A stretch of DNA of 64,000 nucleotides from Anaerolineae bacterium (GCA_947476335.1 CANJQH010000009.1:1-64000), one strand, 5' to 3'; shown: positions 48,056 to 63,121, counted from the stretch's first letter. The notes: generated by a model not told the origin, from the sequence alone. A program made the numbers and translations.

Positions 48056-48151
48056 AGTGTGTGTTCCTGAAATGCGAAGGTAATTTTAGCGCGAATGCGA
48101 AACGCCGCAAATAGAAGCCCATCGGGTGCATCGGACCCATCCGCTCCGTCT

Positions 48152-48994
48152 ATGATCATCTCCATGCTCGACCAGCTCATCGACATCAATCTCGGCGATA
48201 TCTGTGATTCGCTCGGTGTGCGCCGCAGCGTCCTCACAGATGCGCTATTCCGCAAACCAGCGGTTCGATTCGCCCAGCAAATGACGGCGTTTAATGAACG
48301 CATCGGCGTGCACGGCTTGCGCGCGGCATCGTCATGGATCACCGGGGAGCTTGCCGGCCAGATCGATGTGCGCGGCATCGAACATATCCCGGCCAGCGGC
48401 CCGCTGCTCATAGTCTCGAATCATCCGGGCCTAACCGACACGGTCGATTTGTTCGCCTCCATCCCACGCGACGATCTGCGCATTGTGGCTGCGCATCGGC
48501 CATTCCTCGCGGCGCTGCCGAATCTGGCGCCACAACTAGTCTTCGTGCGTGAAGACGCCGGCGCGCGCATGAGCGCCTTCCGCAGCATCGTCGCCGAGCT
48601 GAAGGCCGGCCGCGCCGTGCTGACTTTTCCAGCCGGCCGCATAGAACCAGATCCGGCGCAGCGCCGCGATGCCGCGCGCGAATCGCTGACAAGCTGGAAC
48701 GAGAGCACAGGCCTGCTGGCGCGCCTCGCACCCGAAACGACGATTGTGCCGGTCATCGTCCGCGGCGTCTTCGACCCGACCGCATATCGCCATCCACTCG
48801 CCCGCATCAAACGAACACTGCCGGATCGCGAACGCATGGCGGCGATGCTGCAGGTCATGCTTCCTGCGCTGCAGCACAACACCATCCGGCTGGATTTCGG
48901 CCCACCACTGTATGCAGCTCACATGGCCGCAGCCGGCGACGACGCCACTGCGATCACCGCTCGCATTCGCGCCGCTGCCGGCAACCTGCTGTAA
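48152..48994 (+). CDS. 1-acyl-sn-glycerol-3-phosphate acyltransferase-like (PlsC family)
   Basis: The protein has 280 residues from the chosen start. The catalytic HX4D box is seen as VSNHPGLTDT, and the phosphate-binding TFPAGRIEP motif follows, as in PlsC-type acyltransferases. It may acylate lysophosphatidate or another lipid alcohol at the membrane. There is no clear transmembrane helix, which departs from typical PlsC. Met at 48152 or 48164 is preferred over 48095 because the preceding residues are Ser/Pro-rich and the ribosome-binding context is poor. Confidence 0.75.
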   Translation: MIISMLDQLIDINLGDICDSLGVRRSVLTDALFRKPAVRFAQQMTAFNERIGVHGLRAASSWITGELAGQIDVRGIEHIPASGPLLIVSNHPGLTDTVDLFASIPRDDLRIVAAHRPFLAALPNLAPQLVFVREDAGARMSAFRSIVAELKAGRAVLTFPAGRIEPDPAQRRDAARESLTSWNESTGLLARLAPETTIVPVIVRGVFDPTAYRHPLARIKRTLPDRERMAAMLQVMLPALQHNTIRLDFGPPLYAAHMAAAGDDATAITARIRAAAGNLL

Positions 48995-48996
48995 CG

Positions 48997-49842
48997 CTAT
49001 CGAGCGCGCCCGACGAAATCGAGCTGGTGCGCAAGATAGATCAGCTCACCGCGCGCCACCTGCGCGCGCCGCGCATTCAGCCACGTGCGAAAACGCGACG
49101 CATTAATTTCCGAGCGTGCGCCGACGGACTCTTCAAAAAATCCGAGGATGCACCCGAGAAAAAAAGCGTCATCATGCGCATATTCATTTTCTTCAGCACA
49201 TACGACCCAGTCTGATGAACCACTCGCCATGATGTGCGCGCCCGCTGCGCGCAGATGCATGAACAAATTACTGCCGCTGTGGCTGTCCCCAGAGCGCACA
49301 CCATCGATGACGCGCTCATCCATCGTGCGGTGATACAACGCCTCGATTTCTTCGTCATACGACGCGTCGATCTGCGGCAGCAGTTTTGTAACGCCATCAA
49401 AGTTGATGGTGAAATAAAACAGGCCGCCCGGCTTCAACGCGCGCAACGCAAGCGGCACGATGCTTTTCAATTCAAACAAATCCAGAAACGCATTCGCAAT
49501 GAGAACATCCCACACACCCGTCTGCGTATGCAGAAATTCGCGCGCATCGATCGCCAGCGCATTCACCTCGAACGGCAACGCCGCACAGCGACGGCGCGCC
49601 TCAGTGATCACATGCGGCTGCTCGTCGATCAACATGTATTCCGGAAGCGCAGACCCGAATGCACCGCGCTCCGCCAGCCGCTGTGCCATCGTGCCGATGC
49701 CGCCACCCAGCTCGAGCACGCGCAGGCGCGCACCCGCTGCAGCAAGCTCAGAGACAAAGCGCGCATACACATGCGCATTCAGCGAGCGGTCATCAAGGCT
49801 TTTCTTCGCCGCAAGATATCGGATGAACTCATCGTCGGTCAT
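48997..49842 (-). CDS. Class I SAM-dependent methyltransferase
   Basis: The 281-residue enzyme has the SAM-binding motif LRVLELGGGIGTMAQRL and the motif II/III region WDVLIANAFLDLF and ALKPGGLFYFTIN. The N-terminus MTDDEFIRYLAAKKSLDDRS resembles methyltransferases I recall beside PTPS/GTP-cyclohydrolase II clusters. ATG 49842 lies inside the 3' end of the glycosyltransferase gene (14-bp overlap), so the two are coupled. As last gene of the putative pterin/diaminopyrimidine operon it may methylate the pathway product. Confidence 0.8.
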   Translation of the reverse strand: MTDDEFIRYLAAKKSLDDRSLNAHVYARFVSELAAAGARLRVLELGGGIGTMAQRLAERGAFGSALPEYMLIDEQPHVITEARRRCAALPFEVNALAIDAREFLHTQTGVWDVLIANAFLDLFELKSIVPLALRALKPGGLFYFTINFDGVTKLLPQIDASYDEEIEALYHRTMDERVIDGVRSGDSHSGSNLFMHLRAAGAHIMASGSSDWVVCAEENEYAHDDAFFLGCILGFFEESVGARSEINASRFRTWLNARRAQVARGELIYLAHQLDFVGRAR

Positions 49843-50926
49843 TGACACGCTCCCCCATACTTTCCACACGTTCCACACGTTCCACAAGAAAACTGCGAAT
49901 CGCCGCAGCACTGTCCACCCAGCGTGGATGCGCCGCACCACGCGCGCACGCGGCACGGCCGAGCCGTCGCCGCTGCTCCGGATCGAACAGTCTCTGAATC
50001 GCCGCAGCCGTCGCCGCCGGATTTTCCGGCGGCACGAGATACCCTTCGACATCGTCGTACACGATCTCTCCAGCCGCACCCGCCGTCGAAGCAATCACGG
50101 GCAACCCAGCCGCCATCGCCTCCAGATAAACGATGCCAAAGCCTTCATACTGCGACGGTGCTACGAGCGCGTCCGCACTCGCATAGCAGCGCGCCAGCTC
50201 TGCATCATCAAGTCGCCCGCGCCAGCGCACGCGTGCGCCAAAGCCGGCCACATTCGCAATGTGCCGACAGCGCGCAGCGTACGCCGGATCTACATCATCC
50301 CGACCAATCACATCGAGCGTCCAATCACCGCACACATCACGCAATGCCGTCAGCGTCGTGTGTAGTCCTTTGCGTTCGATCAGATTTCCCACCGCCAGCA
50401 GGCGCAGCGCACCAGTCGTACTTTCCTCGCGCACAAAGACAGGCAGATGATCTGCAGCCGGATATGCCACAACATGCGCACGCCCAGCGCCGACCAGCGC
50501 ATGCACGCTCGCACGCGTCGCATTGCTGTTAAACACAAACGCATCACAGCTGCGCAAATACGCACGTTCGACAACACGGTACATCGCAAGCAGTGCGCTC
50601 GAATGCGTCTCACTCACGCGCAGGTGATGCACGATCGACACGATCGGCGCACGATCGCGCATTCGCCGCAGCAGCGCATTTGCCCGCAGCAGCGACGGAT
50701 GGTTCAGCTCGTCCTGCAGCCACACATCAACGGTCGCATCACACATCCGCCTCGCAAATGCGGTCGATACATTGTCCGCACAATGACGCGCGTAGTTTCG
50801 CCACGGCAGCGAATAGATCTGCACATCGTCGCCGCACGCACGCAGATGCGCAACGAGCATGCGGTCATACAGATAACCACCCGACAGCGTGTCGAGCGCG
50901 CCATAGATCACCAGACCAATACGCAC
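49829..50926 (-). CDS. Glycosyltransferase, family 4 type
   Basis: The 365-residue GT-B enzyme starts VRIGLVIYGALDTLSGGYLY (GTG 50926, preceded by GAGGA). It has NLIERKGLHTTLTAL and the donor-binding VAPSQYEGFGIVYLEAMAAG. The gene lies between the PTPS-like and methyltransferase genes with overlap on the downstream side. By position it may glycosylate a pterin or pyrimidine, by analogy with pterin glycosylation in photosynthetic bacteria. Envelope glycan synthesis is the alternative. A 9-bp repeat TTCCACACG near the 3' end encodes VERVER. Confidence 0.82.
   Translation of the reverse strand: MRIGLVIYGALDTLSGGYLYDRMLVAHLRACGDDVQIYSLPWRNYARHCADNVSTAFARRMCDATVDVWLQDELNHPSLLRANALLRRMRDRAPIVSIVHHLRVSETHSSALLAMYRVVERAYLRSCDAFVFNSNATRASVHALVGAGRAHVVAYPAADHLPVFVREESTTGALRLLAVGNLIERKGLHTTLTALRDVCGDWTLDVIGRDDVDPAYAARCRHIANVAGFGARVRWRGRLDDAELARCYASADALVAPSQYEGFGIVYLEAMAAGLPVIASTAGAAGEIVYDDVEGYLVPPENPAATAAAIQRLFDPEQRRRLGRAACARGAAHPRWVDSAAAIRSFLVERVERVESMGERVNDRR
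49862..49888 (+). repeat. 9-bp tandem repeat in the 3' end of the GT4 gene
   Basis: TTCCACACG twice plus TTCCACAAG, encoding a VERVER-type stretch on the minus strand. Confidence 0.75.
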
Positions 50927-50934
50927 GTCTGTCC

Positions 50935-51321
50935 TCAGCCCATCCCGACCGCGCGTCGATACGACGCCCAGGCGATTTCGTTTTCCCAAATCTGCACCGT
51001 AACTGAGTCCAGATTTCCCGCGCGGATCTGCGCAGTGAACATCTCCCACAGAATGCGGCAAAAGTGTTCGACGCTCGGATTCAGTCCGACGAATTCAGGT
51101 TCATCGTTCAACAACTTGTCTTTGAAGCGCGCCACCAGCCCATTCAGCGCGCGCTCGATGTCGACGATGTCGACAAGATAACCGTGCACATCCAGGCTCG
51201 CACCATGCAGCTGCACTTCAACCACATAGTGATGCGAATGCTTGAAGTTCTCCGGCCCCCAGTCGCCGCCAATCAAAAAGTGCTGTGCGACGAAGTCGCG
51301 CTTTACTGCTACTGTGTACAT
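50935..51321 (-). CDS. Divergent 6-pyruvoyl-tetrahydropterin synthase/QueD-family protein
   Basis: The 128-residue T-fold protein keeps the zinc triad His14 (VAQHFL), His28 and His30 (KHSHHY). The pterin-anchoring Glu residues remain in NPSVEHF and VQIWENE. The catalytic Cys that normally lies four residues before the first His of HxH is Glu24, and the usual Asp-His of the relay reads KDKLLND. Glu in place of Cys is known from PTPS-III enzymes, which form 6-hydroxymethyl-dihydropterin. No queC, queE or folE is near; instead GTP cyclohydrolase II lies upstream. The start at 51321 is used because the longer frame is MITE sequence. Reaction unknown. Confidence 0.85.
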   Translation of the reverse strand: MYTVAVKRDFVAQHFLIGGDWGPENFKHSHHYVVEVQLHGASLDVHGYLVDIVDIERALNGLVARFKDKLLNDEPEFVGLNPSVEHFCRILWEMFTAQIRAGNLDSVTVQIWENEIAWASYRRAVGMG

Positions 51322-51360
51322 ATTTTTTACCTCTGTGCTCTCGGCTCTCACTAAATTTTT

Positions 51361-51442
51361 GTACCTACTCAGGCCAGCTATTTTTCCAACGCGAAACACG
51401 CGCATGTTTCGCGTTGGAAAACCAGATGGCTTGAGTCGTTAC
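51361..51442 (+). mobile_element. Family A MITE, 82-bp short-stem variant
   Basis: GTACCTACTCAGGCC and GCTTGAGTCGTTAC enclose the palindrome CCAACGCGAAACACGCGCAT / ATGTTTCGCGTTGG, which lacks the long T/C-rich stem. It lies between the epimerase and PTPS-like genes. No clear target duplication. Confidence 0.8.
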
Positions 51443-51474
51443 GAAATAAGTAATTGACCGGCCTGAGTCGTTAC
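51443..51474 (+). mobile_element. Family A terminal fragment
   Basis: GACCGGCCTGAGTCGTTAC is a right-end fragment directly beside the 82-bp variant. Confidence 0.6.
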
Positions 51475-51485
51475 CCATTTCCTAA

Positions 51486-52472
51486 TCACGATCTCCCATC
51501 GCGCCGTGAAGCAAATTCAGTCAGAGCCAAAAAGTTGCCAGCGATCAGCCATTCCACGGATTCCTGCACCGCCTGCAGCGAACTGTAGCGCGGCTCGTAG
51601 CCGAGCGCACGCCGGGCTTTTTCGATGCTGCAGTTCGGGCTGTGTGCGATGTGGTCCCACGTAGCCTGTGCCTCTTTTTCACTCACAGTTGTGCGCCAGT
51701 TTTCCCACGAAAGAAATTCGAGATTCGGCTCCGCACCGAACCACGCTGCCATCGCCTCGGCGTAACCGCGCAGCGTCAATGCCTGCGCAGACACCACGTG
51801 AAAACTTTCTCCAATGGAAATCGAGCGGTGCTCGATCACGCGTTGAAACGCCTGCGCCACATCATCGGCATGCACATGATGTACCGTTTCCATGCCGAAA
51901 TTCGGCAGCAATAGTTTTTCACCACGCGCCAGCTGTGCAAATACGCGCGGATCGAAATGACCGGCCGGATTCAGCGGCGCCCAGCCCGGCCCAACAATGT
52001 GGCCCGGGTGCAACAGCGTGGCCGGGAATCCGCTGCGGCGCGCCTGATCGAGCAGATACGATTCGATCGCAGCCTTGCGAATGCCATACTCACCGAACGG
52101 CCGCTTCGGCTCATCTTCAGTCGTCGGCACACGCACGCTCAGGCCATGCGTCCAGATCGTGCCGCAATGCAGAAAATGCTGCACTTTGCCGCGCAGCGCC
52201 TCGACAAGCTGCTGTGCACTCTCCAGCGTAAAGCAAATCATGTCGATCACTACGTCGCCGCCCAGCGCCGCAATACGATCACCGAAATCGCCTGTGCGCT
52301 CCGCTGCGTCACGATCGATCTGCACATCCCGCACACGCGCCCACGCAGCATGCGCAGAATACGGCCGTGCCTGCCCGCGCGACACATTCACCACCGTGTG
52401 CCCCGCCTCAACGAGCCGCGGCACAAGATATGTGCCCACATGTCCCTTGCCACCAATCACGATTACGTTCAT
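51486..52472 (-). CDS. NAD-dependent epimerase/dehydratase family protein
   Basis: The 328-residue extended-SDR-like protein has the Rossmann motif VIGGKGHVGTYL and a substrate domain with GEYGIRKAAIE (the usual Tyr-x3-Lys appears as YGIRK) and LLHPGHIVGPG. Such proteins act on nucleotide-sugars or other NAD-dependent redox substrates. It lies inside the minus-strand run between the Zn-dehydrogenase and PTPS-like genes, with MITEs on both sides. Its role in the pathway is unknown. Confidence 0.8.
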   Translation of the reverse strand: MNVIVIGGKGHVGTYLVPRLVEAGHTVVNVSRGQARPYSAHAAWARVRDVQIDRDAAERTGDFGDRIAALGGDVVIDMICFTLESAQQLVEALRGKVQHFLHCGTIWTHGLSVRVPTTEDEPKRPFGEYGIRKAAIESYLLDQARRSGFPATLLHPGHIVGPGWAPLNPAGHFDPRVFAQLARGEKLLLPNFGMETVHHVHADDVAQAFQRVIEHRSISIGESFHVVSAQALTLRGYAEAMAAWFGAEPNLEFLSWENWRTTVSEKEAQATWDHIAHSPNCSIEKARRALGYEPRYSSLQAVQESVEWLIAGNFLALTEFASRRDGRS

Positions 52473-52491
52473 TTTTTCCTGCTGTTGTTGC

Positions 52492-52550
52492 GCAACTACT
52501 CAGGCCGGTCAGTTTCGCAGAAAATATCAACTTAGGCCTGCGTAATTAGC
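52492..52550 (+). mobile_element. 59-bp miniature family A derivative
   Basis: GCAACTACTCAGGCC and AGGCCTGCGTAATTAGC flank a short centre containing GTTTCGCAGAAAATA. The long stem is missing. Confidence 0.7.
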
Positions 52551-52556
52551 GTTATG

Positions 52557-52666
52557 GTAAATATTCAGGCCCAAATCAGTATTTCCCGCGAAACACACTA
52601 TTCTCTCCCTTCGGGGGAGAGAATAGTGTGTTTCGCGTTGGAAAAATGGCTGACCTGAGTAGTTGC
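52557..52666 (+). mobile_element. Family A MITE (110 bp) with near-perfect target duplication
   Basis: Termini GTAAATATTCAGGCC and GACCTGAGTAGTTGC are slightly decayed. GCGTTATG (52549-52556) and GCGTTATA (52667-52674) match at seven of eight positions. The right duplication overlaps the end of the dehydrogenase gene. Confidence 0.9.
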
Positions 52667-52669
52667 GCG

Positions 52670-53677
52670 TTATATATATTCGTATTCGAAGACCACCTGT
52701 AAAACATCTGCTGCATGCTCATCGAGCAGACGATGTCCATGCTGCGCATCATCAAAGCGCAGCCGCGTCGTGATCAATTGCGACGGACGCACTTCACGCA
52801 GCATGCGCCACGCCACATCAAGCCGACGCTGCTTCGTCCAGCGCGCACTGAGTTCGGGCGCGAGCGTGCTCACCTGGCTCGCCTCCAGGCGAATACGGCT
52901 GCGATGAAATCGCCCCCCCAGATCAACCGTCACCGGTTTTGATCCGTACCACGATCCAAGAATTACACGGCCGCCGTAGCCGGTTGCTGCAAGTGCAACG
53001 TCGAGCGCAGCAGGCGCGCCGCTCAACTCAAAAGTCACGTCAGCACATTCTGCGATGCGCACGCACGCAGCAGCGTCGCTCGGATCGACGGCCGCATGCG
53101 CTCCCATCCGCATGCTCCATTCGCGCCGCAGCGCCAGCTTCTCTACGCCAATCAGCGATGCCAGCGGCATGCGCGACAAAAGCGCCGTCGTCAGCAAACC
53201 AACAACGCCCTGCCCAACCACGACGACGCGTTCGCCAATCCATGGGCGCGCGTCCATCACAAAATTCACCGCCGATTCCATGTTCGGCAAGAGCACAGCA
53301 TCATCAGTTGCCACGTCATCGGGCACGATCTGCAAATCGGACACATGCGCTGTAAAGACATCCTCGTGCGGATTAAATGCAAATACGCGGCGGCCAAGCC
53401 ATTCCGCAGGAACCTGCGCGCCAAGCGCATCAACGACGCCGACGCATGAATATCCGTACTTGAGCGGAAACTGCAGGCCGCCGCCGAGCGCGGCAATCGA
53501 CGCATCTGCCATCAAATGCGTCGGCGCTTCGCCACGATAAATCAGCAGCTCCGTGCCCGGGCTGATCGCAGAAAGCAGCGTGCGCACGCGCACCTGGCTC
53601 GGCGTCGGCTCAGGCACGGCTTCTTCGCAAATCTCCGCACAGCGCGGAGCGGTGAAATATAAAGAACGTCGACGCAT
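52670..53677 (-). CDS. Zinc-type medium-chain dehydrogenase (MDR family)
   Basis: The 335-residue MDR protein has the GroES-like N-terminus with SAISPGTELLIYRG, the FPLKYGYSCVGVV segment and a Rossmann motif VVVGQGVVGLLT. The SPGTE pattern resembles BchC-like and related Zn-dehydrogenases. The catalytic and structural Cys ligands of classical alcohol dehydrogenases are not evident, so zinc use is uncertain. ATG 53677 lies ten bases after the reductase stop codon, indicating one transcription unit. By context it may oxidise a side chain of a pterin or pyrimidine intermediate. Confidence 0.8.
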   Translation of the reverse strand: MRRRSLYFTAPRCAEICEEAVPEPTPSQVRVRTLLSAISPGTELLIYRGEAPTHLMADASIAALGGGLQFPLKYGYSCVGVVDALGAQVPAEWLGRRVFAFNPHEDVFTAHVSDLQIVPDDVATDDAVLLPNMESAVNFVMDARPWIGERVVVVGQGVVGLLTTALLSRMPLASLIGVEKLALRREWSMRMGAHAAVDPSDAAACVRIAECADVTFELSGAPAALDVALAATGYGGRVILGSWYGSKPVTVDLGGRFHRSRIRLEASQVSTLAPELSARWTKQRRLDVAWRMLREVRPSQLITTRLRFDDAQHGHRLLDEHAADVLQVVFEYEYI

Positions 53678-53687
53678 GATCCATATC

Positions 53688-54326
53688 CTATGCCAGCGGC
53701 GCAAATTCAGCTTCGACGATCATGTCGCCTCCCACCGGGCGATAACGCACGTTGCGCAGTTCGGGCAGTTCGATGCGCGTGTGATGCAGCGCATGCATGC
53801 CGGTGAGAAAACGCGGCGCAATCGTCAGCGCCAAACGATGCGCGCACCCGGACTCCAGCAATGACGTGATGACGTGTGATCCACCCTCGACCATCAGCGA
53901 GCGCACACTCTGCTCTTCAAGCACACGCAGCAACTGCGGCCAGCGACCTGCATAAGACCCCTCATCAAAGGCGCGCAGCACGCGCACACCATGTGCCTCG
54001 ACCTCGTGCCGGCGTTCCGTCTGCACAGAATTGCTGCACAACACCCACAGCGGATGCACCGGCTGCGCGATCAGGCGGCATGTCAGTGGAATGCGCAGAT
54101 GCGAATCAAGCACGATCGGCTGCGGGCTGGCGCCGCTCACCAGCCGCACATTCAAGCGCGGATCATCCGCAAGCACAGTGTCAACGCCGACGAGGATCGC
54201 ATCATGTGCGGCGCGTAAGCCGTGCGTGTAGGCCATGGCCTCGGCGCTGCTGAGCGCAGTCGGATGCCCCGGGCGCGCAGTGATGCAGCCATCAAGGCTT
54301 TGCGCGAAGGCCAGCGTGACAATCAT
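53688..54326 (-). CDS. RibD C-terminal-type reductase (dihydrofolate reductase-like fold)
   Basis: The 212-residue protein has the reductase domain of RibD without the deaminase: [29 protein letters not shown] and [14 protein letters not shown]. In riboflavin synthesis this domain reduces the ribosyl side chain of a GTP-derived aminopyrimidine with NADPH; stand-alone versions act before deamination in archaea and fungi. Its ATG overlaps the GTP cyclohydrolase II stop (ATGA), so it likely acts on that enzyme's product. No other rib genes are adjacent. Confidence 0.87.
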
Positions 54327-54931
54327 GACACCGCCAGCAAATGGCGCATGCGCATGGCCTTGGCCAGCAGATAGCGCTCGTTCTCTGCATGTACCGGCAC
54401 CTGCAGCGCCACACGCTCATCCACCTGCACACCGATCTGTTGCAAACCCTCAATCTTGGCCGGGTTGTTGGTCATCAGACGAATTGAACGCACACCAAGA
54501 TTCGCCAGCATCGCTGCTGCGACATCGTAGCGCCGACCGTCCGCCGCATGCCCGAGCAGCAGATTGGCGTCGACAGTATCGTGCCCAAGATCTTGCAGGT
54601 TGTAGGCTTTGAGTTTTTCGATCAGCCCAATGCCACGCCCTTCCTGCCGTAGATACAACACCACACCGGCGCCCGCTTCAGCGATGGCGCGCAACGCAAG
54701 ATCGAGCTGCGGGCCACAATCACAGCGCAGTGACCCCATCACATCACCCGTAAAGCATTCCGAATGCACCCGCGTCAGAACACCGCTGCGGCCATCGATC
54801 TCGCCGTACACGATGGCCAAATGTTCTTTGTCGTCCTGGTCATTGCGGTACGCATGCAGACAAAGCTCACCATGTTCGGTCGGAATACGTGCAGAGGCGG
54901 CGCGGATCACGTGGGGATGCTCAGTGGACAT
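54323..54931 (-). CDS. ribA: GTP cyclohydrolase II
   Basis: The 202-residue enzyme opens the imidazole ring of GTP to give 2,5-diamino-6-ribosylamino-pyrimidinone phosphate. Zinc ligands Cys59, Cys70 and Cys72 appear in HSECFTGD and RCDCG. The Arg-rich [10 protein letters not shown] loop is present, and Tyr110 (KAYNLQD) corresponds to the E. coli Tyr105 needed for complete hydrolysis. Thus the canonical product is predicted, unlike a Streptomyces paralogue with Met there. It is first in the minus-strand run and is divergent from the MFS gene with 55 bp between starts. Confidence 0.93.
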
Positions 54932-54986
54932 GGGAAGACTTTTACATGCACACATGAGGAGAAGCTGTGTCGTTATCATCGACTGA

Positions 54987-56180
54987 ATGCGCACTGTGCT
55001 GTTCACGCTTTTTCTCGATGTGCTGGCGTACAGCATGATCGCGCCCCTTCTCCCGTTCTATGTGCACGACCTGGCCGGCGCCGGCGCCGGCGTACCAGTA
55101 GCATGGTTGGCCGGAATGCTCGGCGCAGGTTACGCAGCAATGCAGTTGATTTCCGGCCCGCTCCTCGGCGTGCTCTCCGATCGCCACGGCCGCCGGCCAG
55201 GTCTGCTGGCGTGCCAGGTCGGCACAGTAATCAGTTTCGTGCTGCTGGCAAATGCGATGTCAATCGAAATGCTGTTCGTCGCCGTTCTGGTCGACGGCCT
55301 GACGGGCGGAAATCTGACGGCGGTGCATGCGTACATCGCAGATGTATCGACTCCGGAAAAACGCGCGCACAACCTGGCGCTGACCGGTGTCGCATTCGGC
55401 CTCGGTGTAACAACCGGCCCGGCGCTCGGATCGCTGCTGGCAATGGTCAACCTACATGCAGCCGTCGTCGCATGCATCGTGGCTGCAGCCAGCCTGATTC
55501 TCACCGCCTCATTCCTGCCGGAATCGCTGCCTGCCGAGCAACGAACGGTGCGCAGTTCGGGCTCACTTCCCCATCAACTTCCACATCAACTTCCACGTCG
55601 ACTTTCAAGTCGACTTTCACATCGCCCGGCGATAACGCTGCTTCTCACCGCGATTTTTGCAGCCAACCTGTCATTCGTCGGCCTGCAGGCGAACTTCGGC
55701 CTTTTCAGCGCTGCACGTTTCGCATGGTCAATGCGCGAGACAAGCGGATTTTTCGCGTTTGTCGGATTGTGCGCAGTGCTGACGCAGGGGCTGGTGCTGC
55801 CGATCGCACAGCGCCGCTTCGGTGATCGCAGATTAATCGCCGCCGGACTTCCGCTGCTGGCGCTGGGCCTGGCGGGAATTGCGTTTGCCAGCGACGCGCG
55901 CTGGGTCTTTCCAGCAGCAGCCATCGCCGCATTCGGCAGCGGGCTCTCGCTGCCAACACTCAGCGCCGTCGCTGCACACACAGCAGCCGAACAGCGCGGG
56001 CTGCTCATGGGAGCGACGCAGTCGCTGCACGCCATTGCGAGCATTGCTGCGCCACTGATGACCGGCGCAGCCTACGAGTTCGTCGCACCGGGTGCGCCAT
56101 ATCTGGCCGGCTGTGCCTGCGCATTGATCGCGGCCGGAGCCGCACATCGCGCATTCGTCATGCTGCAAGCGCGGCAATGA
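54987..56180 (+). CDS. Major facilitator superfamily transporter
   Basis: The 397-residue protein has about twelve transmembrane helices and the MFS loop motif [14 protein letters not shown] between helices 2 and 3, as in TetA-like drug:proton antiporters. The central loop (about 190-215) holds a repeat-encoded stretch [20 protein letters not shown]. Being divergent from GTP cyclohydrolase II, it may export the pathway product. Its 3' end overlaps the convergent glycosyltransferase gene by 23 bp. Confidence 0.87.
55573..55620 (+). repeat. In-frame 12-bp tandem repeat in the MFS gene
   Basis: ATCAACTTCCAC twice, then GTCGACTTTCAA and GTCGACTTTCAC, extending the cytoplasmic central loop. Confidence 0.85.
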
Positions 56181-57408
56181 TGCGGTCGGCAACGCGCTGC
56201 GCGCCGTTTTCATCACGCATGCGCATCGCACATGACTGCGTCCCAGTGCGCAAATTTACATCGTGCAAAGCCTGATCGATTCGTGCCAGCCATGTAGAAC
56301 GCCCCATCGCACGATGCACCGGCGCAACGGCAACGCCAGCCACTTGTGCACGCTCAGCCCAGAAATGCTGGTCCGCAAACACCGGCATGATTACCGCAGG
56401 CGATCCAGCACGAGCGGCCTCGGCGGTCGTCCCAGCGCCGCCATGATGAATCACACAACGCATATGTGGAAATAATGCGCCGTGCGGCACATCGCGCACG
56501 ATCCGCATGCGATCCAAAAATGCCGGCGGCACCGCAGGCAAATTCACCACAGCGCGCAGCCCATGACGCAGCAGCGCTTCGTGCAGCCACGGCAGCGCAT
56601 GCGTGATGGGTGCCATGCTCCCAGCACCGGCGCCGATGTAAATGACATCTCCTCCGTCGATCCAGCGCTGCAAATGCGCATCGAGCGCAGGCGTGTGCTG
56701 TGGAAAGCATGTGCCGAGCGGATGCAGCGCAGGAAGCCAATCCGCAGGCGGAGGCGCCAGGCGGGCAGAGAACGCATTCATCACGGCATCCGCGCGTGCA
56801 TGCACACGCACCAGCGCACCTTCGCGGATGCCGCGCGGCCGCAGCCCGTGACTACGCCGCCAATGATTCACAACACCGCGCAACGGCAGCCACAACATCG
56901 CATCGACGAACACATAGCTCAGTGTGCGCGGGACGCGCCACGGCCACACGCTCGCTGCAAACGAATCCGTCGGCGTGAGTGGCTGCAGCAGCTGCCACAA
57001 CGCCGGAATACCACAGGCGTCCGCCACATCAGCCGCCCACAACGACGCCAGGCCGCCGACGACGGCGCGTGCACCCGCACACGCGGCCATCGCAGAATCA
57101 AGCAAATTCGCTGTCCAGCGCGGCACTCGGCGCAGATAGCGCGCAGTTTCACGCACAGCGGTGCGTGAAATGACACCGTCGAACAACGTCGGATGTACAG
57201 CAAGCCATGCGCTGGGATTTTCCGCCAGCGCCATAAACGGCACGCCGGCGCCTTCGACCAGCGCACGATGCTCAAGATGTGCAGCAATGCGCACTGGAAA
57301 GCCGCGCTGCTGCAGCGCACACGCCGCCGCTACACACGGCTGCACGTCGCCGCGCGTACCACTCGCGAGAAAAACCACCGGGGCGGATGCGGATGTCTGT
57401 ACCAACAA
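56158..57408 (-). CDS. UGT/GT28-like glycosyltransferase
   Basis: The 416-residue GT-B enzyme has FLASGTRGDVQPCVA at the N-terminus, as in sterol and macrolide glycosyltransferases. Its donor-binding signature is IHHGGAGTTAEAARAGSPAV followed by MPVFADQHFWAERA. It would glycosylate a small lipophilic or secondary-metabolite acceptor. It begins three bases after the stop of the upstream methyltransferase gene, so both act in one unit. Confidence 0.88.
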   Translation of the reverse strand: MLVQTSASAPVVFLASGTRGDVQPCVAAACALQQRGFPVRIAAHLEHRALVEGAGVPFMALAENPSAWLAVHPTLFDGVISRTAVRETARYLRRVPRWTANLLDSAMAACAGARAVVGGLASLWAADVADACGIPALWQLLQPLTPTDSFAASVWPWRVPRTLSYVFVDAMLWLPLRGVVNHWRRSHGLRPRGIREGALVRVHARADAVMNAFSARLAPPPADWLPALHPLGTCFPQHTPALDAHLQRWIDGGDVIYIGAGAGSMAPITHALPWLHEALLRHGLRAVVNLPAVPPAFLDRMRIVRDVPHGALFPHMRCVIHHGGAGTTAEAARAGSPAVIMPVFADQHFWAERAQVAGVAVAPVHRAMGRSTWLARIDQALHDVNLRTGTQSCAMRMRDENGAQRVADRIIAALAA

Positions 57409-57411
57409 TTC

Positions 57412-58248
57412 CTACTCCACACGCTCGAACACCAGGCAACGATATCGAATCAGGCCGATTGCCAGCAGCGTCTGCAATGCGATGCTGCCAGCCGTCGCAG
57501 CAAGCACAGGATCGCACCGCCACCATGCGCGCGTCCAGTGCAGCAGCGGAGCGATAAGTTGCAGCGGCAGTGCGCGCAAACGCAGCCACGACGTCAGGTC
57601 GTCAGCACGCTGCAAACGCAGGCCGTGCTGCGCTGCGGATTTCGCGAGCGCATCGACGGGCAACACCGACGGCACCCCCCAGCCAATGCGAAAGACGGCA
57701 ACCAGGTTTTCTTCAACGGGCGAAGCCGACGCGCGCGCAACAGTGTCGTCGAGGAGCACGAGGCGGCCGCCGCTGCGCAGCAAGCGCGCAGCTTCAGCGA
57801 GGTATACGCCGGCACCGGGCGCATGCGCAAACGCCTCGATGGAATACACCAGATCACAGGACGCACTGCGCAGTGGAACAGCGAGAAAATTCCCTTCGAC
57901 GATATAAGCCGCGCCGGCGGTGCGCTGCGCCGCAAGCAGCGCTTGTGCACGACTGAGCGTCATGCCGAAAAGTACGGCAGCAGACGGAAGATGCGGCCGC
58001 AAGTCGAGCAATGCGCCACCTACGCCACAGCCGAGATCGACGACGCATTCGATGGTCGAAATTTTGTGCAGTTCGTCGGCCACGAGGCGATGCGAAAACC
58101 GCAGCGCTTCATCGAGCGATCGCACACCAGTCGGCCACAGTGCGCGATGCACGCTGCCAGCAGATGCGCGACTGCCGAAGTGTGCAAACAACGCAGTGTT
58201 GCGCTCGTAATAGCGTCGCACATTATCGACGTGCCGATCGTTCGTCAT
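57412..58248 (-). CDS. SAM-dependent methyltransferase (sterol/gamma-tocopherol-type)
   Basis: The 278-residue enzyme starts NVRRYYERNTALFAHFG and has SAM motif VVDLGCGVGGALLDL, YSIEAFAHAP and LLRSGGRLVLLDD. The pattern is that of small-molecule methyltransferases acting on sterols, tocopherols or polyketide-like compounds. A weakly hydrophobic segment near the C-terminus (about 245-265) may associate with membranes. ATG 58248 is used; the longer frame adds Cys-rich residues with no similarity. It is coupled to the glycosyltransferase. Confidence 0.8.
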   Translation of the reverse strand: MTNDRHVDNVRRYYERNTALFAHFGSRASAGSVHRALWPTGVRSLDEALRFSHRLVADELHKISTIECVVDLGCGVGGALLDLRPHLPSAAVLFGMTLSRAQALLAAQRTAGAAYIVEGNFLAVPLRSASCDLVYSIEAFAHAPGAGVYLAEAARLLRSGGRLVLLDDTVARASASPVEENLVAVFRIGWGVPSVLPVDALAKSAAQHGLRLQRADDLTSWLRLRALPLQLIAPLLHWTRAWWRCDPVLAATAGSIALQTLLAIGLIRYRCLVFERVE

Positions 58249-58365
58249 CATTCCGAACCCTGTGCAACTGCATGCGCACCGCACGTCTGCGAATAAAAAA
58301 TCCCGGGCTGGTCACGTATCGACCTTGCCCAGGACTACCCGAATCGCCCGAGAAAAACGTGGGAA

Positions 58366-59221: not shown

Positions 59222-61195
59222 CTACTCTTCCCCGTTGCGCCGGGCGTCACGTTCCATATCAGCGACGATGCGGGCAATTTCAGCGTAGGCGGCGCGTTGC
59301 TTGCGATAGAGATCACTCTCGCTCATCACCAGTTTGCGCGCCACATCGCGCACCTTCTGGCTCTGCAGAATTTTTAGTTCAAGAATGTTGTAGAGCATCC
59401 ATTCAGCAGCGGTGAAGCTGCGCTGGCCATCCGGCTTGAGCTGCTCGATGGCGTCCGATAGCACGCGCCGCAGCGCCTTGGTAGCGTTGCCGTTTTCAGC
59501 CGTCATCGCATCAGACACAATCTGCAGCTGCATGAGCGGTGAATCGGTGAAGCGCGGCCCACCCCAGAAATCCTTCATCGCATCATGTACCCAGTGCGTC
59601 ATGTCATCATAGTTTTCGGCGGGGGAACGTTCGAAGTCTGACACCGTCGGCGCAGCTGGATTGGCGGTTTGCGCCATGCGCCGTTGCATTTCCTCAGCGT
59701 CGGGCACCAGCCGTTCCAGCGCCTCGAACGCGCGGCGCTGCGTCTGTGCATCTTCGAGCGAGCGTGCCGCCTGCCGGATCAGCATAGTGACGCCGCGGCG
59801 CTCGGCATCGCTCAGATCGAGCTGATGCGGCCGCACTGCCAGCCCCAGCACAGCCAGCACAGTGGGGCTTTCGAGCGCGCGCAGTGGAATCAGCCAAAAA
59901 TCTTCCCACTGCATGAAGTCATACTCCAACAGCGACTTCGCCGCATTATTTGTAACCGCATTTTTATCGGCCGATTGATCGGCCGATGGCTGCAGCGACA
60001 TCGCCAACTGCAGCACTTCCTCAGAAACTGGCAGCTGCATCGGCGCTGCCGAATCGCTGGAGCCGACCATGACGTACAGCGGCTCCTCATACGGGCCCGG
60101 ACAGGTAGCGACGAACGCAACGCGCGCGCGCAGCAGGTCGCATAGCGCCGCCAGAATATTTTCGAGATATTGCGTCAGATCAGACGTCGTCATCAGACGC
60201 TCGCTGAAATGCTGCAGGCGCTTCACTTCGGCGCTGTCCTCACCGGCGATCAATCGGTCAATCGACGGCTGCAGCGTCACGATGAACAACTGCGCGAGCA
60301 AAATAATCGTCGCCACTGCGATCAAGCCGATGAAAAAACCAGGCAGCTCGAGCCAGCGCTCGATGCGATTGCTCAGCACGAGTGAGGTGATCACGATCGC
60401 AGCCAGCAACGGCCCGCGGATCAGATATTTCATCATGCGCCGCTTGATCACCCGATCAGGCGCACTGGCACCAAAGTAAGCGACCGTGTAGCCCATGAAA
60501 GTGATCGCCGCACCGACGCCCATATTCACCAGCAGCACGCCCAACCAGGGGACGAGCGCAGGAAAAACCAACGGCCAGCTTGTTGGCAGCAGATATGGAA
60601 ACATGGACATCGCCGGCGCTGCAAACGCCAGCGCGAAGTAGGTCATGCGTCGGCGCGTCGTCGCCGTCAGTGAGCGCCGACGCGCCTCGATCACGTTGTA
60701 CGTCGCCCACGCCACGCAGGCGAAGTAGTACAGCGTGAACGGATAAAAGAGCAGCCCAGGTGTGAGATGCGGCAGGCCTGCCGAAGAAATGCCGGGCGTC
60801 GCTACATATTGAGAAGACATCACCAGCAGAAAAACAACCGCACCGGCGACGTAGCCGATTTTCGGCGCAAGCCGCCGCAACGGCTGCGCATCACCCGTCG
60901 CGCGCAACAGCGTGTCTGACAGCGACAGCGAAGCCGCCGGCACAAATGCAATTCCGATCCATTGGAAACGGAGCCACATGTCGGTGCCGGTTTCCGACAC
61001 CTGTGTGAGCAGATCACCGAGAAACGCGCCAATCACACAGGCAAGCACCAAAGCAAAATCGCGCGCAATCGGGCTATGGCGGTTGTACAGCCCGATATAG
61101 ATGATCAGTGCGAACGCAGTGACGAGAATACCCGTCACTACGATGCGATTTAAAAGCGTAATAACTGCGAGCAATTCGAATCCGAGTACTGCCAT
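59222..61195 (-). CDS. Polytopic membrane sensor/regulator with GAF-like region and conserved C-terminal helix segment
   Basis: The 657-residue protein has about eight or nine transmembrane helices (residues 10-310), resembling a 7TM sensor input. A coiled linker (VKRLQHFSERLMTT) and a GAF-like domain (about 335-475) follow. The C-terminal 150 residues are helical and end RDVARKLVMSESDLYRKQRA, a helix-turn-helix-like segment I associate with Chloroflexota regulators. No kinase or cyclase domain is seen. It may couple membrane sensing directly to DNA or protein binding; function unknown. Confidence 0.6.
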   Translation of the reverse strand: MAVLGFELLAVITLLNRIVVTGILVTAFALIIYIGLYNRHSPIARDFALVLACVIGAFLGDLLTQVSETGTDMWLRFQWIGIAFVPAASLSLSDTLLRATGDAQPLRRLAPKIGYVAGAVVFLLVMSSQYVATPGISSAGLPHLTPGLLFYPFTLYYFACVAWATYNVIEARRRSLTATTRRRMTYFALAFAAPAMSMFPYLLPTSWPLVFPALVPWLGVLLVNMGVGAAITFMGYTVAYFGASAPDRVIKRRMMKYLIRGPLLAAIVITSLVLSNRIERWLELPGFFIGLIAVATIILLAQLFIVTLQPSIDRLIAGEDSAEVKRLQHFSERLMTTSDLTQYLENILAALCDLLRARVAFVATCPGPYEEPLYVMVGSSDSAAPMQLPVSEEVLQLAMSLQPSADQSADKNAVTNNAAKSLLEYDFMQWEDFWLIPLRALESPTVLAVLGLAVRPHQLDLSDAERRGVTMLIRQAARSLEDAQTQRRAFEALERLVPDAEEMQRRMAQTANPAAPTVSDFERSPAENYDDMTHWVHDAMKDFWGGPRFTDSPLMQLQIVSDAMTAENGNATKALRRVLSDAIEQLKPDGQRSFTAAEWMLYNILELKILQSQKVRDVARKLVMSESDLYRKQRAAYAEIARIVADMERDARRNGEE

Positions 61196-62122: not shown

Positions 62123-63121
62123 TTAATTTTGAATATTGAACGACGTCGTGCAACGCGCCACTTCATCTCCGTTGCTGCCGAATACGAGAAGGCGCGCAAA
62201 ATAAGTGCCATTGACGAACAGCGCCGATTGAAAGCGCGCCGGCAACAGCATTTGTTCGGTCACGCTCGCATTGCTTTCCCAGAGCGAACGCCAAACGGAT
62301 TCGCCCGCCGGAAGGACTTCTAGCCTGTACCGGCCGCCGGCGAACACGGCACTGCCGACGATATCGTACTCGCCGCTCACTGTCTCGCCAGTTGCTGGGC
62401 GCGTCAATCGGGCAACAGTACCGCACACAGCATCGGCGACTGGCGGCGCAGCGGCGGTGTCAAACAATATGGTCAGTTCCGGCGTTGCTTCACTTGTGCC
62501 CTGCAGCACAGGCAGTGCGGCGATTGACTCAGAGGTCGGCGCATTCGTCGCCGTCGGGATAGCAAATACCGTCGGAGTGTCGGCTGGCGGCACAGTCGGC
62601 AGCATATCAACGGCCGACAACGGCTCTGGCGTCGTCGTCGGCGCCGGCGAATCGATGCCGGGCATCGGTGTAGCCGTCACCGCCACCAGCAGCGATTCAT
62701 CGAGGCTCGGCGTCGGCATACTCATTGGGTCAGGGTTGCTCGTCGCGCCCGCCACACTCTGTGCCACAGCCTGCGCCTGCTGCAAATCAGCCGTCGGCAA
62801 CGGCGTAATCAACAGGCTGAAGGGGGTGGAAGTTATCTTCATCGTGGCCACAGCGCCATTGGACGAAGTTGTGACGATGGTCGATGCGTCGCTGCGGCTG
62901 GTCAGCCAATACACGCCGCCACCCAATGCGAGAAAGAACAACGCGCGAGTGAAGTAGGTCGCCGCGCGCCGCACCACAGCCGTACGCTCCAGCCGAAACG
63001 ACACACGTTCCAAATCGCGCGTCGACATCAGCCCACCAAACAGGAAAATAATCACCCCGGCAGCGCATGCGACCAGCAGCACCGCGCGCAGCTGAATGAT
63101 GTTCTGAGCAATAACTTCCAT
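62123..63121 (-). CDS. Membrane protein with Thr/Pro-rich linker and C-terminal beta domain
   Basis: The 332-residue protein has two transmembrane helices near the N-terminus (about 14-33 and 57-72), a long Thr/Pro/Ala-rich linker (about 95-230) and a C-terminal domain. That domain has the strand pattern SGEYDIVGSAVFAGGRYRLE and two Cys that could pair. It probably presents a small beta-sandwich domain outside the cell. No function is assigned. The overall style resembles the PP2C-like protein's tail at 7-8.6 kb. Its last codons abut the MITE target duplication. Confidence 0.5.
   Translation of the reverse strand: MEVIAQNIIQLRAVLLVACAAGVIIFLFGGLMSTRDLERVSFRLERTAVVRRAATYFTRALFFLALGGGVYWLTSRSDASTIVTTSSNGAVATMKITSTPFSLLITPLPTADLQQAQAVAQSVAGATSNPDPMSMPTPSLDESLLVAVTATPMPGIDSPAPTTTPEPLSAVDMLPTVPPADTPTVFAIPTATNAPTSESIAALPVLQGTSEATPELTILFDTAAAPPVADAVCGTVARLTRPATGETVSGEYDIVGSAVFAGGRYRLEVLPAGESVWRSLWESNASVTEQMLLPARFQSALFVNGTYFARLLVFGSNGDEVARCTTSFNIQN

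Follow-up and report, generated by a model that had tools for sequence, protein, structure and literature searches.

A conserved gene cluster in Chloroflexota and other prokaryotes with a possible role in building a glycosylated, pterin-like compound from GTP

The gene arrangement most similar to the one described here is that of SCO6650 and SCO6655 in Streptomyces coelicolor, where a PTPS homologue (SCO6650) is likewise accompanied by a GTP cyclohydrolase II (GCH II; SCO6655) and a RibD_C gene. The crystal structure of SCO6650 has been available since 2008 without a function being assigned, and the PTPS-IV neighbourhoods with PF00925 and PF01872 noted in 2017 (AGeNNT; PMC5445326) came without a product; the passages of that account considered here do not mention dehydrogenase (ADH), GT4 glycosyltransferase, methyltransferase (MT) or lipid genes. 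A search of the open literature on the locus, SCO6650, SCO6655 and halopterins returned no description of a product or of an association with lipid genes.

The riboflavin pathway of bacteria and archaea has its first two enzymes in common with the cluster, but it further comprises a RibD deaminase and lumazine synthase, whereas the cluster is without this deaminase domain and the host without lumazine synthase. The synthesis of phosphatidylinositol and its mannosides offers an analogy, as a PgsA-type transferase, the GT4 enzyme PimA and an acyltransferase are there grouped around a polyol phosphate headgroup; in contrast to that system, the headgroup proposed here would be derived from GTP, and transferase and acyltransferase occur in separate cluster types. 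The pterin glycosides of cyanobacteria and Chlorobium, made by GCH I, PTPS and a pteridine glycosyltransferase, also involve a glycosyltransferase and a protein of the PTPS fold; however, the entry enzyme of the present cluster is a GCH II, and the catalytic Cys of PTPS is missing.

The locus is situated in a stretch of 64,000 nucleotides (the window) of a Chloroflexota MAG (G000) that is 92.7% complete and whose nearest named relatives, among the best 80 of 476 PTPS relatives, are Anaerolineae. Gene calls and family matches bear out all ten genes at the positions given in the original prediction, to which a PlsC-like acyltransferase gene, absent from it, is added here:

54323-54931, minus strand: RibA-type GTP cyclohydrolase II, monofunctional, with Tyr as switch residue (TIGR00505, PF00925)
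53688-54326, minus strand: reductase of the RibD C-terminal type, deaminase domain absent (PF01872, 136 bits)
52670-53704 (likely start 53677), minus strand: MDR dehydrogenase, BchC/TDH-like, zinc-ligand motifs not conserved
51486-52472, minus strand: NAD-dependent epimerase/dehydratase with MITE-like repeats on either side (PF01370)
50935-51321, minus strand: PTPS/QueD-like T-fold protein, ENxxHSH variant of the SCO6650 (PTPS-IV-like) group (PF01242, 91 bits)
49829 to about 50926, minus strand: GT4 glycosyltransferase, start placed at GTG 50926 by comparison (PF00534, 116 bits)
48997-49842, minus strand: class I SAM methyltransferase of a family with the conserved motif RYLxAKKxVDDRALN
48095-48994, plus strand: PlsC-like acyltransferase (PF01553, 37 bits)
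54987-56180, plus strand: MFS transporter, DHA1/Tet-like, divergent from RibA, peripheral (PF07690)
56158-57408, minus strand: UDP-sugar-type glycosyltransferase (UGT) with EryCIII-like C-terminus, peripheral
57412-58284, minus strand: second class I methyltransferase, a minor though repeatedly seen member (10/89 loci)
51357-51446: MITE-like inverted repeat in the gap between PTPS and epimerase
52557-52668: MITE-like element in the gap between epimerase and dehydrogenase, with about 15 related copies in the window

The operon on the minus strand has the order RibA–RibD_C–dehydrogenase–(epimerase)–PTPS–GT4–methyltransferase. Of the six junctions, four are tight (a 4-bp overlap, about 10 bp, about 8 bp and a 14-bp overlap) and not five as had been claimed, whereas the two wide ones, of 164 and 197 bp on both sides of the epimerase, do contain MITE-like elements, as stated before. 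A MITE-like hairpin with CGCGAAACACACTATTCTCTCCC arms is present at about 15 sites of the window between 163 and 62128, mostly intergenic, and two ORFs (59222-61195, 657 aa; 62123-63121, 332 aa) have no Pfam match. Between 44000 and 62000, no Rfam family was found at gathering threshold, and thus no riboswitch at this threshold.

For the comparison among genomes, PTPS relatives were sought in one genome per species (84,980 species), which returned 476 relatives; the best 80 were taken, such that the scanned loci are those chosen by similarity to the query PTPS. Among 89 non-redundant loci including the window, many of which are cut by contig ends, PTPS is present in 88, GT4 in 82, ADH in 74, MT in 56 and RibA in 43, and the core genes often form same-strand runs with gaps below 350 bp. 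The order RibA–RibD–ADH–PTPS–GT4–MT is repeated across Chloroflexota, alpha- and gammaproteobacteria, Calditrichota, actinomycetes and haloarchaea, and within a set of 60 relatives RibA-RibD-ADH-PTPS-GT4 is syntenic in seven genomes besides the host. As this order is seen in dozens of genomes, the arrangement is not a product of chance; furthermore, the divergence of the core genes is correlated (pairwise distances, r 0.67-0.94). The co-occurrence on which the original prediction depended is therefore found, the core set recurring in the 89 loci, and neither a lack of co-occurrence nor a mere complementation of riboflavin synthesis, each of which would have spoken against it, is apparent as far as sequence allows. 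Plasmid-borne clusters are found in Haloarcula (H. marismortui, plasmid pNG700), Natronorubrum, Thiodictyon, Palleronia, Streptomyces fungicidicus, Methylosinus trichosporium OB3b, Peteryoungia, Agrobacterium and Microbacterium, and carriers beyond this plasmid list include gammaproteobacteria and one Calditrichia MAG. Among cultured carriers, the locus of Methylomonas koyamae contains RibA, the RibD-like protein and the dehydrogenase together.

Some of the genes originally counted as part of the system do not belong to the conserved set. The epimerase is confined to the window (1/89) and was not encountered at the other 88 loci. The MFS gene occurs in three loci only (the window, L051 and L089), in each case beside RibA, and the UGT gene in three as well (the window, L089 and, weakly, L050); on account of this restriction, an export story based on either of them was down-weighted. 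An orphan PTPS of the same group adjoins Maf and band-7 genes, without RibA, in one locus (L029, G040).

Concerning the purpose of RibA, strong family matches to riboflavin enzymes would suit the assumption that RibA, together with the reductase, merely provides riboflavin. However, the host gave no match to lumazine synthase (PF00885), and neither did the 10 relatives, out of 60, that carry the cluster, an absence that rests on incomplete MAGs; by gene content, the cluster RibA is for this reason not devoted to riboflavin in the Chloroflexota hosts, and riboflavin supply is extremely improbable. Within the 60 relatives, every genome with GCH II has either the cluster or lumazine synthase: those with the cluster (10/10 with GCH II) all lack lumazine synthase, whereas the remaining five GCH II genomes all possess it (Fisher 1.5e-10, a value overstated by the relatedness of the genomes). 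Across 181 Chloroflexota, GCH II without lumazine synthase is found in 12 of 16 PTPS-positive versus 8 of 165 PTPS-negative genomes (p-values ignoring relatedness), the latter eight thus having GCH II with both lumazine synthase and PTPS absent. Two PTPS-positive Chloroflexota with lumazine synthase (G114 and G169) both carry a GCH II of RibBA length, and G169 has an additional second copy of 228 aa, which likewise argues against riboflavin supply. These pathway absences apply to Chloroflexota hosts; outside this phylum, many cluster hosts make riboflavin.

A role of PTPS-IV in coenzyme F420 synthesis has been claimed from unpublished work cited in Zallot et al. 2016 (PMC5041015). It is very improbable here, since neither the host nor any of the 10 cluster genomes has CofH, the cluster is without a deaminase, and glycosyltransferase and lipid genes would be left unexplained. 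An alternative, PTPS-III-style route to the folate pterin would be in line with the Glu at the position of the catalytic Cys and with the absence of GCH I from the host, but the host and 8 of the 10 cluster genomes have no HPPK, and GT4, MT and lipid genes would again have no place, which makes this route very unlikely. The riboflavin, F420 and folate explanations were set aside after these genome searches (lumazine synthase, CofH, HPPK). Judged by the genes present, the pathway is conserved and separate from riboflavin and F420 synthesis, and mostly from folate synthesis, in the Chloroflexota hosts; the absences of lumazine synthase and HPPK thereby uphold the GTP-consuming pathway of its own that had been postulated. 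The host, for which the searches run detected no lumazine synthase, HPPK, GCH I or CofH, may have to obtain several vitamins from others.

The window RibA matches TIGR00505 with 248 bits (cut-off 206) and is the sole PF00925 protein of the genome. Aligned to E. coli 2bz0, it reads KLKAYNLQD versus KIRAYALQD, the switch residue being Tyr, and on strong family grounds it is predicted to be a GTP cyclohydrolase II that forms the diaminopyrimidine ribotide and formate. The switch residue of the cluster RibAs is Tyr in 41 and Met in one (S. fungicidicus); S. globisporus provides a second Met case, and the RibAs of Peteryoungia and Agrobacterium have Tyr. The window thus differs in this residue from the Streptomyces plasmid clusters. 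Both Met-type Streptomyces loci contain a creatininase-family gene beside RibA; a creatininase is also present in one Tyr-type locus (L055), and H. pelagica possesses GCH IIa in place of GCH II. The Met enzyme SCO6655, studied by Spoonamore and co-workers in 2006, reportedly stops at the formylamino intermediate. On this intermediate a creatininase-annotated deformylase acts (PMC9478397). Tyr-type GCH II, Met-type GCH II with creatininase, and GCH IIa probably represent three entry solutions that converge on one shared diaminopyrimidine ribotide.

The RibD-type reductase (212 aa) matches PF01872 only, and among solved structures its closest chains belong to RibD proteins and to diaminopyrimidinone reductases (for example 7lrh and 2b3z). 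In the dehydrogenase, originally labelled a Zn-dehydrogenase, the catalytic zinc ligands (Cys / His-Glu) are not conserved, SAISPGTE and YGYSCVG standing in their place, such that BchC/TDH-like is the more fitting description. No deaminase family was matched among the cluster proteins, which renders a lumazine, one of the products initially considered, unlikely.

The AF2 model of the window PTPS (pLDDT 93.7) has its best PDB match in 3d7j, i.e., SCO6650 (TM 0.87, E 7e-12), which is also the only PDB sequence match; together with the type of locus, this supports the proposed resemblance to SCO6650/SCO6655. The QueD/PTPS-I motif CxxxHGH is not found in the window PTPS, which has ENxxHSH and no Cys, and TIGR03367 is matched with 44 bits versus a cut-off of 89. 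In alignments, window-type proteins retain the three His and show Glu at the catalytic Cys position, and a C-terminal Glu is conserved among the homologues; to judge from the family, the His residues would be zinc ligands. The window locus has the two neighbours (PF00925 and PF01872) typical of PTPS-IV, whereas the PTPS-IV signature FGPAQ (PMC5445326) is absent, the window sequence being WGPEN...HSH with the three His kept. FGPAQ is carried by the PTPS of the Streptomyces, Thiodictyon and Palleronia loci. The PTPS-III motif ExxHGH (PMC5041015) is not present in the window PTPS either, and neither is its folate context, with HPPK absent from the host. The PDB relatives of the GT4 protein include PimA, MshA and tetrahydrobiopterin glucosyltransferase (5ze7), and a fold search with the core methyltransferase yielded generic class I matches only.

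The recurrence of lipid genes at these loci is new here and was not part of the original prediction. A CDP-alcohol phosphatidyltransferase is found in 27 of the 89 loci and a flippase-like gene in 28. The former stands at loci of Chloroflexota, gammaproteobacteria, Calditrichota, Thiodictyon, S. fungicidicus and haloarchaea, and the clusters of Peteryoungia, Agrobacterium and Microbacterium contain both genes. The transferase motif DxxDGxxARx8GxxxDxxxD shows no variation among 12 sequences, which come from Chloroflexota, proteobacteria, Calditrichota, Streptomyces and haloarchaea. The window cluster, in which no CDP-alcohol transferase gene was found, has the PlsC-like gene (PF01553, cut-off 23 bits) instead, on the opposite strand and convergent with the methyltransferase at a gap of 2 bp. 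Such a gene occurs in 14 of the 89 loci, co-directional with the core in seven and, in L048, L089 and L111, at the head of one run with the whole core; among the 60 relatives it is present in 8 of 10 cluster genomes, and two genomes have it without PTPS. Where a locus spans 14 kb or more, the PlsC-like gene is never found together with the CDP-alcohol transferase (0/12 versus 20/41, p 0.0017), a mutual exclusion that may partly reflect host kinship. The CDP-alcohol transferase was rejected as an obligate partner and is not strictly tied to this pathway, since its subfamily is strongly matched in two genomes without a PTPS match; in L123 and L124, the pair of transferase and flippase-like gene has no PTPS nearby. 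Several long loci contain neither lipid gene type. A DUF420-like membrane protein recurs near clusters with the CDP-alcohol transferase (L054, L055, L078, L113, L119).

Given the start from GTP, the apparent lack of riboflavin synthesis in the host and the frequent lipid genes, the product is probably glycosylated, pterin-like and perhaps membrane-linked. The preferred reading, with a probability of about 0.5, is a dedicated pathway in which GTP would be converted into a 2-amino-4-oxo-pyrimidine/pterin-type core that is glycosylated, methylated and probably attached to lipid. RibA, as its family strongly suggests, would open GTP to 2,5-diamino-6-ribosylamino-pyrimidinone 5'-phosphate, and the RibD-type reductase, again by family, would turn the ribosyl into a ribityl chain; with no deaminase detected among the cluster proteins, the 2-amino group would be kept. 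The dehydrogenase may then oxidise one ribityl hydroxyl, the position being a guess. With oxidation at C2', the 5-amino group could close a dihydropterin ring bearing a trihydroxypropyl phosphate, which would amount to dihydroneopterin phosphate made without GCH I. The T-fold protein, with Glu at the catalytic Cys position of PTPS/QueD, may bind and further process the pterin, and GT4 and methyltransferase would decorate it. Going by their recurrent association, a lipid anchor might be added by the CDP-alcohol phosphatidyltransferase, often with the flippase-like protein, in one cluster type, and by the PlsC-like acyltransferase in the type of the window. An extension of this pathway to a new class of membrane lipids in bacteria and haloarchaea, i.e., a lipid-anchored, glycosylated and methylated pterin built from GTP independently of GCH I and possibly redox-active, is tentative. 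The possible redox activity is suggested by a cytochrome b gene that adjoins RibD in L039, L133 and L134 (Thiodictyon, Peteryoungia, Agrobacterium), with a sulfatase-like gene nearby.

Instead of a lipid, a soluble, exported, glycosylated and methylated pterin or diaminopyrimidine might be made, the lipid genes being neighbours or serving another compound. The pterin glycosides of cyanobacteria and the halopterins made by Haloarcula marismortui, whose plasmid pNG700 carries the locus, would be comparable to such a product, and the glucosyltransferase 5ze7 among the GT4 relatives, the MFS gene beside RibA in three loci and the long loci without either lipid gene type fit it as well. The repeated presence of the CDP-alcohol transferase at cluster loci of five phyla, Archaea among them, and the two lipid types not co-occurring in the sampled loci speak against it, such that this alternative is possible but doubtful. 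Toxoflavin-type pathways likewise begin with GCH II, and the fate of the ribityl chain past the dehydrogenase is a matter of inference; both would agree with an antibiotic of the nucleoside type or some other redox compound, formed by enzymes that act on the pyrimidine with no closure of a pterin ring. Owing to the pterin-enzyme fold in 88 of 89 loci and its conserved C-terminal Glu, this is quite unlikely.

With regard to the product first envisaged, a glycosylated and methylated GTP derivative, the conserved GTP-consuming pathway stands, whereas the lumazine variant has lost ground and the recurrent lipid genes had been overlooked. The present analysis defines the gene set, finds that several GTP-derived pathways fail to account for it in Chloroflexota hosts and links lipid genes to the loci across bacteria and archaea; with cultured carriers named, the pathway is open to testing. 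If true, the preferred pathway would constitute an additional route to pterins and possibly a new lipid class. Haloarchaeal (L036, L037, L038) and many Chloroflexota clusters have in common a small DUF7475-like protein, for which about four membrane helices are predicted and which is encoded at 30 of the 89 loci.
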